The notes under the pieces: model-generated
Told to the model about the DNA's origin: nothing
Databases searched by the model: none
What the model saw: the letters and a program-made list of their open reading frames with translations, nothing else
Source: an uncultured Bacilli bacterium
GTDB taxonomy: Bacteria; Bacillota_I; Bacilli_A; RF39; UBA660
Length of the DNA stretch: 34,910 nt
Direction of reading: 5' to 3'
NCBI GenBank assembly: GCA_947623825.1
Contig: CANQHQ010000012.1
Span: 1-34,910 of the forward strand
Translations under genes and position numbers: made by a program
In this document: positions 114 to 6,582 of the stretch, piece after piece
Layout: each line of letters begins with the position of its first letter
How positions within the stretch are numbered: the stretch's first letter is position 1

Positions 114-3100
114 GTGAAAAAAGCGTTTCTTTGGATTCATAAAAGAGTTGGAGTTCTTACGATTGGTTTATTGGCTATTTTCATGGTTGGAATAGGACTT
201 TTGCTGAATTCTTATGCCTTAAGCGAACCAATACCCAAGATTTCTTTTTCATCCCAAACGTTAAGTTATGAAGAGAATGATCCGGGAAGTTGGCGGGTTG
301 ACAAGGGTGCGGAATGGATTGGCTTAGGGAAAGCGAGAATTACCTTTCAAGTAGATACGATTTTAAAGACAGAAAATCCGAATACAGATGTCATTCTAGT
401 TCTTGATATATCTGGATCTATGGCAGGAGAAAAGTTAGAGCGAGTGAAGAAAGATTCCATCGATTTATTAACTGCGTTGTTATCAAATAAAAACAATCAG
501 GCAGCATTAATTACGTTTGATACAAACTCTGAACTAGTGTCTGGTTTTACTAATGACACAAATAGTTTAATAGAGGTGATAAGTAGTTTAGAAGCTATAG
601 GAACTACTAATTATTATCAACCGCTTGTCCATGTAGATGAAATTTTGAAAAATTATTCCAAGAAAGAAGATACAGAGTGTGTTGTTTTATTCTTAACGGA
701 TGGATATCCGAATGAGGATATTCCGAATCAAATAGGGGAATATCAATATTTAAAAAGTGAATATCCGTGGTTAAATATCCATGGGGTTCAATATGAAATG
801 GGAGAAGAAATTTTAGAACCTATCAAAGAAGTTAGTGATAACCAGTTTATCGCGGATATGACTACGTTGAATAATGTCTTGTTTGATGCTTCTGTTCTAC
901 CTATTCCTTATGATAAGTTTATCTTAACGGATTGGATTCATAATGAATATTTTGATTTAAAGGAGGTTTCGAATATTCAACCTTCTTTTGGAAAAGTAGA
1001 GTTAGAAAATGATAACGGAGTACCCAAAGTGACATGGGATTTAAGCGGTTTAAAGTCAGGACAAAGTGCCACGTTAACGATAGATATTGATTTAAAAGGA
1101 GATTCTTACACAGGAAGTGAAATTAATCCAACTAACAAGAGTAGTAAAGTGGTTTCTCAAATAGATGGGGATAAAGAAGATGTTACAACAAAGGAAAGTC
1201 CTAGTTTAAAAACACATTATAAAGTGATTTACGATGGAAATGCCCCAAGTGGATGTAGTGTAGGTGAGGTACCTGAAGCAAAAGATTATGCTGTATACGA
1301 AACAGTCGGAAAAAGTGATGCAGTTCCTATTTGTGAAGGTTATCAATTTAAAGGATGGGAAATTGTAACAGAAGAAGTGAAACAACTGAATGGTGACTAT
1401 TTTCAAATGCCTGAGAAAGATGTAACATTACGAGCAGAATGGGGAAAAATGGGATTATCGAAGTCGGTGGAAGGAGAAGTTTATATTCAAAGAGGTCCAG
1501 TTCTGCAAAAAATAGGATCCGGCTATTATGATAAAGAACTTTGGCAATATAAAGATTCTATTACGAAGATAGTCTTTGAAGGGGAACAGACATCAAAAGA
1601 AGGCTCTACAGAGGAACTCACTTGGGATATTTCGGCAGCCAAAGATGGCTCGGTAAGAGGATTACTGGTACCGAATTCCGATGATCCTTCTACCTATACT
1701 GCTTACATTCAAGGATTAGAAGGAAAAGTGATTGCCAATTCGGATAGTTCTTATTTATTTGGTGGCGAGTATTTTTCTTCCTTTTCAAAATTAAAGGTGA
1801 TAGAAGATTTAGAATTATTAGATAAGAGTCAAGTAACCAATATGAGTTCTATGTTTGAATATTGTAAATCCTTAACAAGTTTAGATTTAAGTGACTGGGA
1901 CACAAGGCAAGTAACTGATATGAGTCGTATGTTTTCTGATTGTGAATCCTTAACCAGTTTAGAAGGCTTAAGTAGTTGGAACACTCATCAAGTAACCGAT
2001 ATGTATGGTATGTTTTCTGATTGTAAAGCCTTGAATAGTTTAGAAGGTTTAAGTAAATGGGACACGAGTCAAGTAACCGATATGAGTTCTATGTTTTCAG
2101 GTTGTTGGCTCTTAACCAATTTAGATTTAAGTAGTTGGAACACTGGTCAAGTAACCCGTATGAGTTCTATGTTTCGTAATTGTAAGGTCTTAACCAGCTT
2201 AGATTTAAGTGGCTGGGAAACAAGTAAAGTAACCGATATGGATGATATGTTTTATTGGTGTTTTCACTTAACCAGTGTCGGAGATTTAAGTGGCTGGGAC
2301 ACAAGTCGAGTAAAGGATATGAGTTCTATGTTTGATGAATGTTACGACTTAACCAGTTTAGATTTAAGTGGTTGGGTACCGAGTCAAGTAACCGAGATGG
2401 ATAGTATGTTTTATCATTGTATTGCCTTAACCAATTTAGATTTAAGTGGCTGGGATACAAGTCAAGTAACCAATATGCTGAGTATGTTTGATGGTTGTGA
2501 GGCCCTAATCAGCTTAGATTTAAGTGGCTGGGACACGAGTCGAGTACCGGATATGAGTTATATGTTTCGCGATTGTAACGCCTTAACCAGTCTAGAAGGT
2601 TTAAGTAGTTGGGACACGAGTCAAGTAACCGAGATGGATAGTATGTTTTATGGTTGTAAGGTCTTAACCAGCTTAGATTTAAGTGGCTGGGACACGAGTA
2701 AAGTAACCAATATGGATGGTATGTTTCGTGAATGTAGTTCCTTAACTAGTGTCGGAGATTTAAGTAGATGGGATACCCGTCAAGTAACAGATATGTATTT
2801 TATGTTTGATGATTGTAGTCAGTTAACAGCAACAATTAGTATTCTAAATAATTCAGTGACTAGTTATGGTGGTATGTTTAGAAATGCTGCTACCAAAAAT
2901 AATGCTCAAATTACAGTCAATTATTCTAGTGAATCAGAAGCATTAGTAGAACAAATGATTGCTACAAAAAATAATGCAAATTCAAATGTGATAAAAGCAG
3001 ATAGTCCATATGTGGCACATTCTGTAACGATTCAAGGTAGAAATGACATTATTGCAACTCCATCAGGTGGAATTATGTTTACCCAAATTACACTGACTCC

Positions 3101-3518
3101 AACTCAAGAGAATTATATGGTTACTTCGTTTGACATGAATGGAAGAAAAATAGAAGGTAATACTTTTGCTATGCCGAATGAAGAAGTTGTGATTACGAAT
3201 GTGACCATTTCTGAAGGTGTCCTATGGGAATCTAGTCATAACCCATATAATAATAACCTAGATGAAACATATGAGCATACTTTTGAAGGGGCAGGAAGTT
3301 TGACTGTTACCTTGGAGTATCAAACAGAAAGTGCAAGTTGGGATTATATTTATTTATATGATTCTACTCAAAAGCAGTATGGAGAGTATGGAGGAAAAAC
3401 AAAGACAACAGAAACGATAATTATTCCAGGAGATTACATTAAAATTTTATTTCATACAGATGAAAGTGGTAATGACTATTATGGTTTCAAAGCCACTGTG
3501 ATTCCTAATTATGAATAA
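114..3518 (+). CDS. Secreted VWA / B-repeat / DUF285 (BspA-type leucine-rich) / CUB-like surface protein
   Basis: This is an 1134-aa surface protein, probably an adhesin. The start is GTG at 114, with AGGAAG at 100-105 as the ribosome-binding site. Domains in order: an N-terminal hydrophobic signal/anchor (about residues 12-35); a von Willebrand A domain (about 90-265) with the metal-site motif DISGS at 98-102, a Thr pair near 164 and TDG at 195-197; a linking beta domain; an InlB/Listeria-Bacteroides B-repeat (about 368-445, ending LRAEW); thirteen DUF285 leucine-rich units of about 24-26 residues (about 570-905), each of the form DTSxVTxMxxMFxxCxxLTSLDLSGW; a beta linker; and a C-terminal CUB-like domain with WDYIYLYD. 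No LPxTG or C-terminal membrane segment is visible, so the N-terminal segment may hold it in the membrane. A strong terminator follows at 3592. In this family, DUF285 and VWA domains usually mediate attachment to host or matrix ligands. The ligand here is unknown. Confidence 0.85.
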   Translation: MKKAFLWIHKRVGVLTIGLLAIFMVGIGLLLNSYALSEPIPKISFSSQTLSYEENDPGSWRVDKGAEWIGLGKARITFQVDTILKTENPNTDVILVLDISGSMAGEKLERVKKDSIDLLTALLSNKNNQAALITFDTNSELVSGFTNDTNSLIEVISSLEAIGTTNYYQPLVHVDEILKNYSKKEDTECVVLFLTDGYPNEDIPNQIGEYQYLKSEYPWLNIHGVQYEMGEEILEPIKEVSDNQFIADMTTLNNVLFDASVLPIPYDKFILTDWIHNEYFDLKEVSNIQPSFGKVELENDNGVPKVTWDLSGLKSGQSATLTIDIDLKGDSYTGSEINPTNKSSKVVSQIDGDKEDVTTKESPSLKTHYKVIYDGNAPSGCSVGEVPEAKDYAVYETVGKSDAVPICEGYQFKGWEIVTEEVKQLNGDYFQMPEKDVTLRAEWGKMGLSKSVEGEVYIQRGPVLQKIGSGYYDKELWQYKDSITKIVFEGEQTSKEGSTEELTWDISAAKDGSVRGLLVPNSDDPSTYTAYIQGLEGKVIANSDSSYLFGGEYFSSFSKLKVIEDLELLDKSQVTNMSSMFEYCKSLTSLDLSDWDTRQVTDMSRMFSDCESLTSLEGLSSWNTHQVTDMYGMFSDCKALNSLEGLSKWDTSQVTDMSSMFSGCWLLTNLDLSSWNTGQVTRMSSMFRNCKVLTSLDLSGWETSKVTDMDDMFYWCFHLTSVGDLSGWDTSRVKDMSSMFDECYDLTSLDLSGWVPSQVTEMDSMFYHCIALTNLDLSGWDTSQVTNMLSMFDGCEALISLDLSGWDTSRVPDMSYMFRDCNALTSLEGLSSWDTSQVTEMDSMFYGCKVLTSLDLSGWDTSKVTNMDGMFRECSSLTSVGDLSRWDTRQVTDMYFMFDDCSQLTATISILNNSVTSYGGMFRNAATKNNAQITVNYSSESEALVEQMIATKNNANSNVIKADSPYVAHSVTIQGRNDIIATPSGGIMFTQITLTPTQENYMVTSFDMNGRKIEGNTFAMPNEEVVITNVTISEGVLWESSHNPYNNNLDETYEHTFEGAGSLTVTLEYQTESASWDYIYLYDSTQKQYGEYGGKTKTTETIIIPGDYIKILFHTDESGNDYYGFKATVIPNYE
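1821..2829 (+). repeat. Thirteen tandem DUF285-coding repeats
   Basis: These are in-frame tandem units of about 72-78 bp inside the surface-protein gene. Each carries near-identical blocks such as CAAGTAACCGATATGAG, ATGTTT and TTAGATTTAAGTGGCTGG. Units alternate between the SLDLSGW type and the SLEGLSSW or SVGDLSGW type. The high similarity at DNA level suggests recent expansion or gene conversion. Unit number could change by slippage without breaking the frame. Confidence 0.85.
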
Positions 3519-3950: not shown

Positions 3951-4160
3951 AATACGCAAATTTTTGGATGAGGCATTTGAAATATAAGACTTACTTAATT
4001 GTATAAAACGGAAATAAGTTCTTTTAATTTTGAACTAGTGATGGGAAATTTTTGCATACTAAAATAACAGAGTTATTTCTGTTTTGTGTTAATTTGTATT
4101 AATTATATTAAACATAAAATCAAGGTTATTAATTCATTAACTGTCTACTTTTTCTTGACT

Positions 4161-4646
4161 AATGCAGTACGAGGATTATTAGTACCGAATTCAGATAACA
4201 CATCGACTTATACTGCATATATTCAAGGAGTGGGTGGAAGAGTCATTGCGAATCCAGATAGTTCTTACCTATTTAGTTCGTTTTTAGGATTAACGATGAT
4301 TGAAGGATTAAAATTACTAGATACGAGTGAAGTAACCGATATGAGTTATATGTTTTCAGGTTGTTGACTCTTAACCAGTTTAGATTTAAGTGGCTAGAAC
4401 ACAGGCCAAGTAACTGATATGCAGAATATGTTTGCTAGTTGTTCAAAATTAACCAGTTTAGATTTAAGTGGTTGGGATACAAGTCAAGTAACCCGTATGA
4501 GTTCTATGTTTTCTAATTGTACTGCTTTAGAAACAATTACTTATGGGGAAAAATTTATTCATAATCCTTCTGCTAGTGTTAGTGTCATGTTTACAAATTG
4601 CCCCGCGCCTAAACCTACTCATTTCTCTTGGGATGGAGTTTTTTAG
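4161..4646 (+). pseudogene. Truncated DUF285 surface-protein paralogue with two in-frame stops
   Basis: One continuous reading frame matches the middle of the 114-3518 protein: VRGLLVPNSDNTSTYTAYIQG matches that protein's VRGLLVPNSDDPSTYTAYIQG. About three DUF285 units follow. The frame is broken by TGA at about 4364 and TAG at about 4394. Both sit where the intact gene has a Trp codon (TGG), so each is a single G-to-A change. The similarity starts abruptly near 4161, with no signal peptide, VWA or B-repeat upstream. The end (NPSASVSVMFTNCPAPKPTH) differs from the intact gene. It is probably a duplicated fragment or the remains of a second surface protein. A short ORF downstream of the stops could still be translated, but nothing shows that it is. 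Confidence 0.8.
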
Positions 4647-4655
4647 AAAATCAAT

Positions 4656-4693
4656 GAGAAATGGTCTTTGTTCGATTGTTTCTCTTTTTCTTT
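4656..4693 (+). terminator. Terminator between the pseudogene and the polymerase promoter
   Basis: GAGAAATGGTC (4656-4666) pairs with GATTGTTTCTC (4674-4684) with three G-T pairs around a 7-base loop. CTTTTTCTTT follows. Its 3' arm overlaps the proposed -35 element of the next promoter, so read-through into the intron should be limited. Confidence 0.65.
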
Positions 4694-4704
4694 GCCTTTA
4701 TAAT
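4676..4704 (+). promoter_or_regulatory. Promoter of the intron-interrupted polymerase gene
   Basis: TTGTTT (4676-4681), a 17-base spacer and a perfect TATAAT (4699-4704). The same TTGTTT-17-TACAAT layout precedes the gene at 6672. Transcription would begin near 4710-4712, only a few bases before the intron's 5' splice site. Confidence 0.65.
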
Positions 4705-4709
4705 GGAAT

Positions 4710-4715
4710 TAGGTG
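4710..4715 (+). promoter_or_regulatory. 5' half of the split Shine-Dalgarno sequence, also the intron's IBS1
   Basis: TAGGTG ends exactly at the predicted 5' splice site. It is the reverse complement of CACCTA at 4913-4918 inside the intron, the expected EBS1-IBS1 pairing. Joined to the 3' exon (ATTTTATG from 5390) it gives AGGTGATTTTATG. This is the ribosome-binding pattern used at 7589, 9906 and 11174 in this window. Confidence 0.8.
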
Positions 4716-5389
4716 GTGCGTCAGTTCGGTGTATGACATATAGTTGGTGGGAAACCAACATGGTAATCTCTAGCAAAGAGCCATTAGCTAATCTTGGAGC
4801 CGAAGCCGTGAGGTAAGGTTTAAGCGTAGATAAGCAAGAGTTCGAGCCGTAATGCGAAAGCGTGAAGTTATTGAGCCTCGTAAAATAATATATAAGTAGA
4901 TGTTGATAGGGTCACCTACCTAGCAAACAAAATCGGTAGTGTCGTTAAGCGAGACACTATGAGAAATCTACCGGGGTCTTTAGGACATGGCGAGTTCTAC
5001 ATTGTTATGTCATGCATACCTGAGAGAACTTATATGCTCTTAAGTCTAAAAGGTTTAAAACACCAATAGTAAAGAGTAATGAATGTACAAGAACTTGGTT
5101 AACCCAAAACATTCAAAAGGTATATAAGTAGTCGGACTAGTCCATAGTAGTGGTGAAAGAAGTAATGACTCTGGAGCGAAGGGACTAGCATATAAATTGC
5201 CTAATATATGAAACAATTTCTATGTGCAAGACACAATAAAGAAATGTAAAAGGATTATATTAGATATATAGAACAATTTATATGAAAAGCCGTATGCCTT
5301 AATAGGGCACGTACGGTTTTGTGAGGGGCAGTGAGGCTAGCCTTTCACTTAAAGAAAAGAGAGGTGAAGTCGAGACCTGCCTACTCGAC
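4716..5389 (+). mobile_element. Complete ORF-less group II intron inside a ribosome-binding site
   Basis: This is a 674-base ribozyme-type intron. It starts GTGCG, the group II 5' consensus, and ends CTACTCGAC. EBS1 CACCTA (4913-4918) matches the six bases before the splice site. A domain III-like segment spans about 5132-5187 (GTAGTGGTGAAAG and GGAGCGAAGG). Domain IV is a closed 96-base hairpin: CATATAAATTG (5189-5199) pairs with CAATTTATATG (5274-5284), and CTAATATA (5201-5208) pairs with TATATTAG (5256-5263). It has no reverse-transcriptase ORF. Domain V is 5287-5319 with the catalytic AGC at 5288-5290, the CG bulge at 5310-5311 and closing AAGCCGTA/TACGGTTT. Domain VI spans 5323-5386, with bulged branch-point A5383 seven bases from the 3' end. 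All catalytic landmarks I can check are intact. It probably needs a maturase supplied from elsewhere in the genome. EBS2 was not found. Confidence 0.88.
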
Positions 5390-5394
5390 ATTTT

Positions 5395-6582
5395 ATGAAA
5401 AAGAGAATTATTTTTCATATTGATGTGAATAATGCTTTTTTATCATGGACGGCGGTAGATTTACTTAGTAAGGGATATCCGGTTGATATTCGTACGATTC
5501 CTTCTGTGATTGGTGGAGATGAAGAAAAACGTAGAGGGATTGTGACTGCGAAAAGTCCGGTGGCGAAGAAAATGGGAGTGGTTACCGCTGAACCTCTTTT
5601 TATGGCTAGAAGAAAATGTCCTGGACTAAAGATTTTTCAAGGAGATTATGAACTTTATCATCGAAAGTCAGATCAATTATATCAATATCTTTGCCAGTAT
5701 ACGGATAAGATAGAACGATTTTCTGTTGATGAATGTTTTTTAGATATGACGGGGACCAATTATTTATATTCAGACTATGTTTCTTTGGCTCATCAAATTC
5801 GTAAGGAAATTTTTCAAAAATTTGGGTATACTGTTAATATCGGGGTTGCGAATAATAAACTCTGTGCGAAAATGGCAAGTGATTTTGAAAAACCGAATCG
5901 TGTTCATACTTTATTTGAAGAAGAAGTTCCACAAAAAATGTGGCCTCTTTCTGTAGAAGATTTATTTATGGTTGGAAAATCTTCTAGTAAAATGTTAATG
6001 GAAATGGGAATTTTAACGATTGGGGATTTGGCAAAGTTAGATATTTCTTTTCTAAAGAAACGATTTAAGAGTCAAGGAGAAATGATGCATTACTATGCGA
6101 ATGGTATGGATGATAGTCCTGTCGTTTCTGATTATGGCAAAAGTAAAAGCATCAGTACGACAGAAACTTTAGAAAAGGATATCGATAGTACTCCTGTTTT
6201 GAAAAAGATTCTATTACGACAAGCGGATCATGTAGGTCGACAAGCGCGGAAAGAGAAATTATATGCACAAACGGTTGCGTTAATCTTTAAAACAGGGGAT
6301 TTTGTCAATTACAGTCATCAAGTAAAATTGATGAATCCTACCAATGTAACAGAGGAAATTTATAAAATAGCGTTATCGATTTTAAAGAATGGTTGGAGAG
6401 GAGAACCTCTTCGATTGATTGGGATTCGTTTGGGGGATTTTACGAAAGAAAATCATAAACAGATTTCTTTCTTTGATCAGGAGAAAGATGTTCATCAAGA
6501 AGAAATTCAGGAAGTTTTGGATCAAATTACAGAAAAATATGGAGATGGAGTGATTATTCCTGCCAGTTTAAAAGAAAAGTAA
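5395..6582 (+). CDS. dinB: Y-family (DinB/Pol IV-like) translesion DNA polymerase, interrupted in its 5' UTR by a group II intron
   Basis: This 395-aa error-prone polymerase acts on damaged or stalled templates. Catalytic carboxylates are D10 (in FHIDVN) and D112-E113 (in SVDECFLD). F15 aligns with the ribose steric gate. Helix-hairpin-helix and little-finger regions follow, and QISFF at about 356-360 looks like a beta-clamp-binding motif. The N-terminal HIDVNNAFLSW and the PSVIGGDEEKRRGIV block are typical of a Firmicutes subgroup distinct from E. coli DinB. The only good start is ATG 5395; the frame is closed at TGA 5365. No Shine-Dalgarno lies at usable distance in the unspliced RNA: GAGGTG at 5361 is 28 bases away. 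The intron ends 5 bases before the ATG, and splicing brings AGGTG to the right spacing. Expression is therefore predicted to depend on splicing. The symbol is given at family level. Confidence 0.9.
   Translation: MKKRIIFHIDVNNAFLSWTAVDLLSKGYPVDIRTIPSVIGGDEEKRRGIVTAKSPVAKKMGVVTAEPLFMARRKCPGLKIFQGDYELYHRKSDQLYQYLCQYTDKIERFSVDECFLDMTGTNYLYSDYVSLAHQIRKEIFQKFGYTVNIGVANNKLCAKMASDFEKPNRVHTLFEEEVPQKMWPLSVEDLFMVGKSSSKMLMEMGILTIGDLAKLDISFLKKRFKSQGEMMHYYANGMDDSPVVSDYGKSKSISTTETLEKDIDSTPVLKKILLRQADHVGRQARKEKLYAQTVALIFKTGDFVNYSHQVKLMNPTNVTEEIYKIALSILKNGWRGEPLRLIGIRLGDFTKENHKQISFFDQEKDVHQEEIQEVLDQITEKYGDGVIIPASLKEK

Follow-up and report, generated by a model that had tools for sequence, protein, structure and literature searches.

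The locus considered here raises the question of why a group II intron should lie between a ribosome-binding site and the start codon that it serves, and whether such sites form a class of target for the intron and its relatives. The window, that is, the whole stretch of 34,910 nucleotides that was analysed, carries an ORF-less element at positions 4716–5389 (forward strand, as are the promoter boxes, intron parts and interrupted gene given below) which was matched by the Rfam models RF02005 (113.7 bits) and RF00029 (46.7 bits, covering domains 5 and 6 at 5285–5389), so that the RNA structures of group II domain 1 and domains 5–6 are both represented. Its ends, GUGCG on the 5' side (GTGCG at 4716) and CUCGAC on the 3' side (CTCGAC up to 5389), fit the group II pattern GUGYG...AY.

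The 5' exon ends in TAGGTG (4710–4715), which is both the presumptive Shine-Dalgarno (SD) sequence and the intron-binding site IBS1, and the 3' splice site is followed by the spacer ATTTT (5390–5394; 5 nt is the commonest spacer of the AGGTG sub-lineage) and then by the start codon of a 395-amino-acid protein of the DNA polymerase IV (DinB) family (5395–6582; Pfam IMS/IMS_C), for which the NCBIfam DNA polymerase IV models were the best matches, yet below their cut-offs. A -10 box, TATAAT (4699–4704), ends 11 nt before the intron and is preceded at a distance of 17 nt by the -35 box TTGTTT (4676–4681), so that the exons, when joined, read TATAAT-GGAAT-TAGGTG^ATTTT-ATG. Orthologues of the dinB-like gene were found in 15 of 16 other genomes of the genus and all 15 were intron-free, with an SD sequence before the start codon at the equivalent place (for example TTATAATattctTAGGTGatggcATG, TTATAATatttttAGGTGatattATG and TTATAATaatatcaAGGTGgttttATG); nearly all of these empty sites also possess the TATAAT box, and TTGTTT or TTGTCT at about the same place as in the window. 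It follows that the window element separates a start codon from an SD that looks functional, its position between the two being exact. Further upstream, positions 4086–4639 hold the broken remnant of a repeat-containing (DUF285-type) surface protein resembling the intact 1134-amino-acid protein encoded at 114–3518.

One further copy of the intron was identified in the same metagenome-assembled genome (1.48 Mb; contig C16, G000:C16:12600-14514), 98% identical to the window copy across intron nucleotides 1–480 and inserted at TATAATGGGACTAGGTG^AGCAAGA-ATG, ahead of a licD-like gene. This copy encodes a 423-amino-acid reverse transcriptase/maturase (the intron-encoded protein, IEP) with a YADD motif, matches to RVT_1 and group_II_RT_mat, and a score of 370.9 bits against TIGR04416 (cut-off 300), whereas the window copy has no IEP; the C16 protein probably mobilises the window copy in trans. 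The two copies differ in the bases between the -10 box and IBS1 although their domains 1 are nearly identical, and hence there is no sign of a strict IBS2. Empty sites, together with the presence of several copies per genome, are consistent with the putative splicing and retromobility.

The original prediction held that the exon-binding site of this intron mimics the anti-SD end of 16S rRNA, and the sequence bears this out. Within domain 1, GGGTCACCTACCT is present at 4909–4921 and includes a U (4912) followed by EBS1, CACCUA (4913–4918), which is complementary at all six positions to the six bases 5' of the splice site; the U precedes EBS1 in all extracted introns, and with it the element (4912–4918) resembles the anti-SD. 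As the host assembly contains no 16S rRNA gene, the comparison used the 16S 3' end of a class-level relative (GGATCACCTCCTTTCT), against which the EBS1 loop aligned as GATAGGGTCACCTACCT / GATGGATCACCTCCT. Shuffled domain-1 sequences scored as well against the 16S tail in 2.9% of cases; taken alone, the likeness is weak evidence, and it was not relied upon. The strength of the anti-SD case comes rather from the relatives, in which a shift of the point where the SD is cut is accompanied by a change in EBS1: taggtg is paired with CACCTA, ggaggt with ACCTCC, aaggag with CTCCTT, ttgagg with CCTCAA and aggtgg with CCACCT. With EBS1 taken from the equivalent loop of each relative (the hexamers of three Lachnospiraceae introns were read by hand), a mean of 5.26 of six bases paired with the intron's own IBS1 compared with 3.26±0.16 for shuffled partners (n=46), and 5.33 compared with 3.24 when one intron was kept per distinct EBS1 (n=27). 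In one relative (G016:C12, L006), a deletion of about 5–6 nt has removed most of EBS1 (GGTCAACAG), which now pairs at 4/6 positions only; this copy, still located at AGGTG^ATAATATG, is probably immobilised or dying.

These relatives, nearly all from metagenome-assembled genomes and including L082 of Youngiibacter fragilis and L089 of Erysipelotrichaceae NK3D112, were collected by IEP similarity (80 loci) and by intron DNA, the insertion site playing no part in retrieval. A clade of 54 rows was separated from 24 others in the IEP tree (SH-aLRT 99.8) and has members in the Firmicutes as well as in a few other phyla. Plasmid and phage records, when searched with the IEP, yielded only relatives below 60% identity. 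Among 56 distinct 5' junctions, located by searching for the motif at the 5' end of the intron and retained if 40 nt or more lay upstream, 49 were preceded by an SD-like sequence; we drew this division by eye and afterwards checked it with swap and shuffle controls. The matches are weak in L063, L129, L092 and L056, and further members not of SD type occur among loci that the motif search had left without a mapped junction. Both junctions could be assigned in 32 introns, from which the window intron was excluded since its junction had merged with that of the C16 copy. Joining the exons of these introns gave a mean SD run of 5.97 bases to AAGGAGGTGA, compared with 3.60 for shuffled exons and a maximum of 5.47 in 500 swaps of 3' exons between introns, and the SD letters contributed by the 3' exon matched at 55 of 81 positions (27.8±4.3 when swapped). 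The sub-lineages cut the SD at roughly GGAGGTG^A, GGAGGT^GA, GAGG^TGA, AAGGAG^G and AGGA^GG, while the distance from the SD start to the ATG keeps a median of 14 nt (Spearman 0.83). The swap controls and this steady spacing show that the SD as such is preserved and not only a fixed IBS1. Thus the proposal that any AGGTG site could be entered stands as regards the use of SD sites but needs amending as regards the motif, which is not always AGGTG, as AAGGAGGTGA is cut at different positions by different sub-lineages.

The original prediction also anticipated that relatives would lie shortly before gene starts, and in this site-blind collection an ORF-opening ATG lay 4–13 nt past the 3' splice site in 29 of the 32 introns, compared with 6.5% of positions drawn at random from those loci; by clade, the figures were 30/33 in the clade described above and 2/12 in its sister. 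The predicted pairing of the 20 nt before the ATG with the anti-SD averaged -10.7 kcal/mol in spliced and -1.9 kcal/mol in unspliced transcripts, the spliced form being the stronger in 27 of 27 cases (-11.3 and +0.1, respectively, in the window), so that translation should need splicing. The genes downstream are unrelated and include those for DNA ligase (ligA), LepA (lepA), MnmG/GidA (mnmG), the CCA-adding enzyme, MurJ (murJ), an integrase, a response regulator, PfkB, Fic, SDR, 5'-nucleotidase, UDG, Rep3 and VanZ proteins, and others. The insertions must consequently be many and independent, although introns of the same sub-lineage are related and their sites are not fully independent. With SD sequences before the 5' splice sites, EBS1 complementary to them and the interrupted genes unrelated, the proposal that the SD is a target class is supported. 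Three contigs of one genome (G057: C3, C6 and C18, carrying L024, L030 and L012) end in the first 72–75 nt of the intron behind three different SD-like 5' exons, and assembly was probably interrupted at these points by a high-copy intron family.

SD targeting does not extend to every relative: 7 of the 56 junctions are not of SD type, and four introns (L060, L061, L062 and L064, from Solobacterium and Oscillospiraceae assemblies) apparently lie at the start codon. In these four, ATG forms the end of the 5' exon, an SD-like sequence precedes it in most of them, and EBS1 starts with CAT; this sub-lineage seems to insert right after start codons, with the start codon itself as the putative target. 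In L061 and L062, and partly in L060, the 3' end of the intron seems to supply an SD of its own, with ...ATTTACTTATG, ahead of the ORF (the 3' splice site being uncertain), and the gene may be translated whether spliced or unspliced. Two further clade members from Spirochaetaceae assemblies, L078 and L085, have a homologous 3' exon in common and are located inside an ORF, with 5' exons ending in ctacta| and atatta|, and have apparently switched to ordinary homing.

A feature that the original prediction had not foreseen is the proximity of these sites to promoters. A TATAAT-like box with at most one mismatch ended 5–18 nt upstream of the 5' splice site at 46 of the 49 SD-type sites, and the -10 box was TG-extended in 57%. 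Exact TATAAT within 4–20 nt upstream was present at 30/49 sites, against 2.2±1.4 in dinucleotide shuffles and 10/179 SD-preceded starts among the host genes of these loci (odds ratio 27, p=2e-16), the last figure having been 31/231 before orthologues of interrupted genes, which inflated it, were removed. The exact box was chosen for this comparison because the one-mismatch count at background SD starts (36%) sat near the shuffled level (31%). The notion that any SD would serve as target must therefore be narrowed: SD sites are used, but most of them are found 5–18 nt downstream of a -10 box. In the window's own genome, a pattern search for TATAAT-N2-9-AGGTG-N4-8-ATG returned 25 places and its reversed control none, which delineates a class of host genes with TATAAT directly ahead of SD and start codon; the mRNA leaders of those 25 genes are predicted to be about 10–20 nt long and to begin near the SD. 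Transcription generally starts about 7 nt past the -10 box, and a start at that distance would leave the interrupted genes a 5' exon of only about 4–10 nt.

This promoter preference might arise because open promoters offer melted DNA, because the IEP recognises promoters directly, or because selection favours transcribed copies. We rejected the idea that the IEP reads the -10 box at a strictly fixed distance, since distances of 5–18 nt within and between sub-lineages speak against it. A more specific possibility, which we regard as rather unlikely, is that RNA polymerase, in melting an open promoter, exposes a non-template strand which the intron RNP invades, the SD then being read by EBS1. 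The frequency of exact, TATAAT-like and TG-extended boxes given above would agree with this, as would the variable rather than fixed distance from the -10 box, the lack of an endonuclease domain in the IEP and the lack of an apparent strict IBS2; invasion of this kind is, however, something that we infer and do not observe, and recognition of TGnTATAAT by the IEP, or selection for copies just behind a promoter, would give an identical picture.

The bias toward gene starts might also arise after insertion rather than during it, if introns inserted widely and only those copies persisted that spared the coding region and left an SD after splicing, host selection and not targeting then being responsible. 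That housekeeping genes such as ligA, murJ, mnmG and lepA carry the intron fits such a filter, as loss-of-function insertions there would be purged; however, EBS1 itself matches the SD by complementarity at whatever position the lineage in question cuts it, selection alone would also have kept introns in long leaders and between genes, where they are rare, and sister-clade introns seldom precede start codons, all of which makes survivorship improbable. Still less probable is class C (IIC) behaviour, in which insertion downstream of Rho-independent terminators would make the SD incidental: a terminator-like hairpin with a T run, judged by eye, does lie tens of nucleotides upstream of both own-genome copies, but it is the -10 box and the SD, not the hairpin, that occur at a short and fairly constant distance, EBS1 tracks the SD, and the sites, before unrelated genes, do not look like the terminator-flanking or attC sites of class C introns. 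Homing sites are the commonest group II specificity (PMC4424553), and L078 and L085 do have homologous exons inside an ORF, but it is scarcely credible that the introns home site-specifically to a single conserved gene or mobile element and have inherited the SD position in this way, given that the interrupted genes are unrelated and that even the two own-genome copies precede different genes (dinB-like and licD-like). Homing to one gene is ruled out by gene diversity for the lineage as a whole.

We consider it highly probable that the window element is a non-autonomous member of a group II lineage that has promoter-proximal SD sites as its target class and whose splicing rejoins the SD, a reading drawn from sequence evidence: the site and its empty counterparts, EBS1–IBS1 covariation, the SD across the junction, constant SD–ATG spacing, promoter proximity and the clade-wide pattern. 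Splicing, mobility, trans-mobilisation, the exact transcription start and the reason for the promoter preference are what we infer from that evidence. The excised intron, together with an endonuclease-less reverse transcriptase/maturase (probably that of the C16 copy, acting in trans), would recognise DNA by its anti-SD-like EBS1 and reverse-splice into the sense strand of a gene with a -10 box just upstream, the point of entry lying inside the SD or immediately behind it. The resulting pre-mRNA would start with a very short 5' exon holding all or part of the SD, leaving the start codon beyond the intron without one. Splicing would then bring (AAG)GAGGTGA back to the start codon at normal spacing (the predicted product across 4715^5390 being TAGGTG^ATTTTATG-type), and the gene would be translated only after splicing. 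Ribosomes would not pass from the host gene into the intron. Insertion would be tolerated by essential genes, and it would be harmless because splicing restores the SD. Only tentatively do we extend this to a retroelement lineage that reads the -10 region (perhaps as melted non-template strand) and the SD together, with an RNA that has converged on the anti-SD and host translation that depends obligatorily on splicing.

If this account is true, such a parasite could enter even essential genes at little cost while making host translation splicing-dependent, and the lineage would be a clear case of RNA converging on the anti-SD as well as a route to introns at promoters and start codons (cf. spliced leaders); it might also provide a retargetable tool for placing switches under splicing control at the beginning of genes. 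Bacterial introns are credited in a 2015 review with three known target specificities, namely homing sites, terminators and attC sites (PMC4424553). Specificity for promoter-proximal SDs would add a fourth, and no account of group II introns that target SDs turned up in full-text searches of the literature covered; its novelty is likely, though not certain.

Comparison with known systems places the lineage apart from each of them. Class C introns share an endonuclease-less IEP of about 420 amino acids, a functional class of DNA motif as target and apparently short exon pairing, whereas the SD lineage targets promoter-proximal SDs, re-creates the SD in its joined exons and interrupts the host gene rather than avoiding it. 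Introns of the Ll.LtrB type pair EBS1 with IBS1, as the SD lineage does (at six of six positions in the window, with covariation throughout the lineage), and make the host gene dependent on splicing, as is proposed for that lineage too, but they home to one site of 20–35 bp whereas the SD lineage occupies many unrelated genes, and the C-terminal HNH endonuclease of ML, CL and B types was not found in the 423-amino-acid IEP, for which Pfam returned RVT_1 only. The Clostridium tetani intron C.te.I1 (PMC3919590) resembles the window intron in being ORF-less and, as is predicted for the window, in affecting translation of downstream ORFs through splicing, but it lies behind a stop codon, alternatively splices coding exons and does not belong to an SD-targeting lineage. 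The F3 introns of Thermosynechococcus elongatus (PMC2882425) are also ORF-less and close to start codons, with a start codon of an intron ORF on either side, but they occupy one conserved site inside other introns and not the SDs of diverse host genes.
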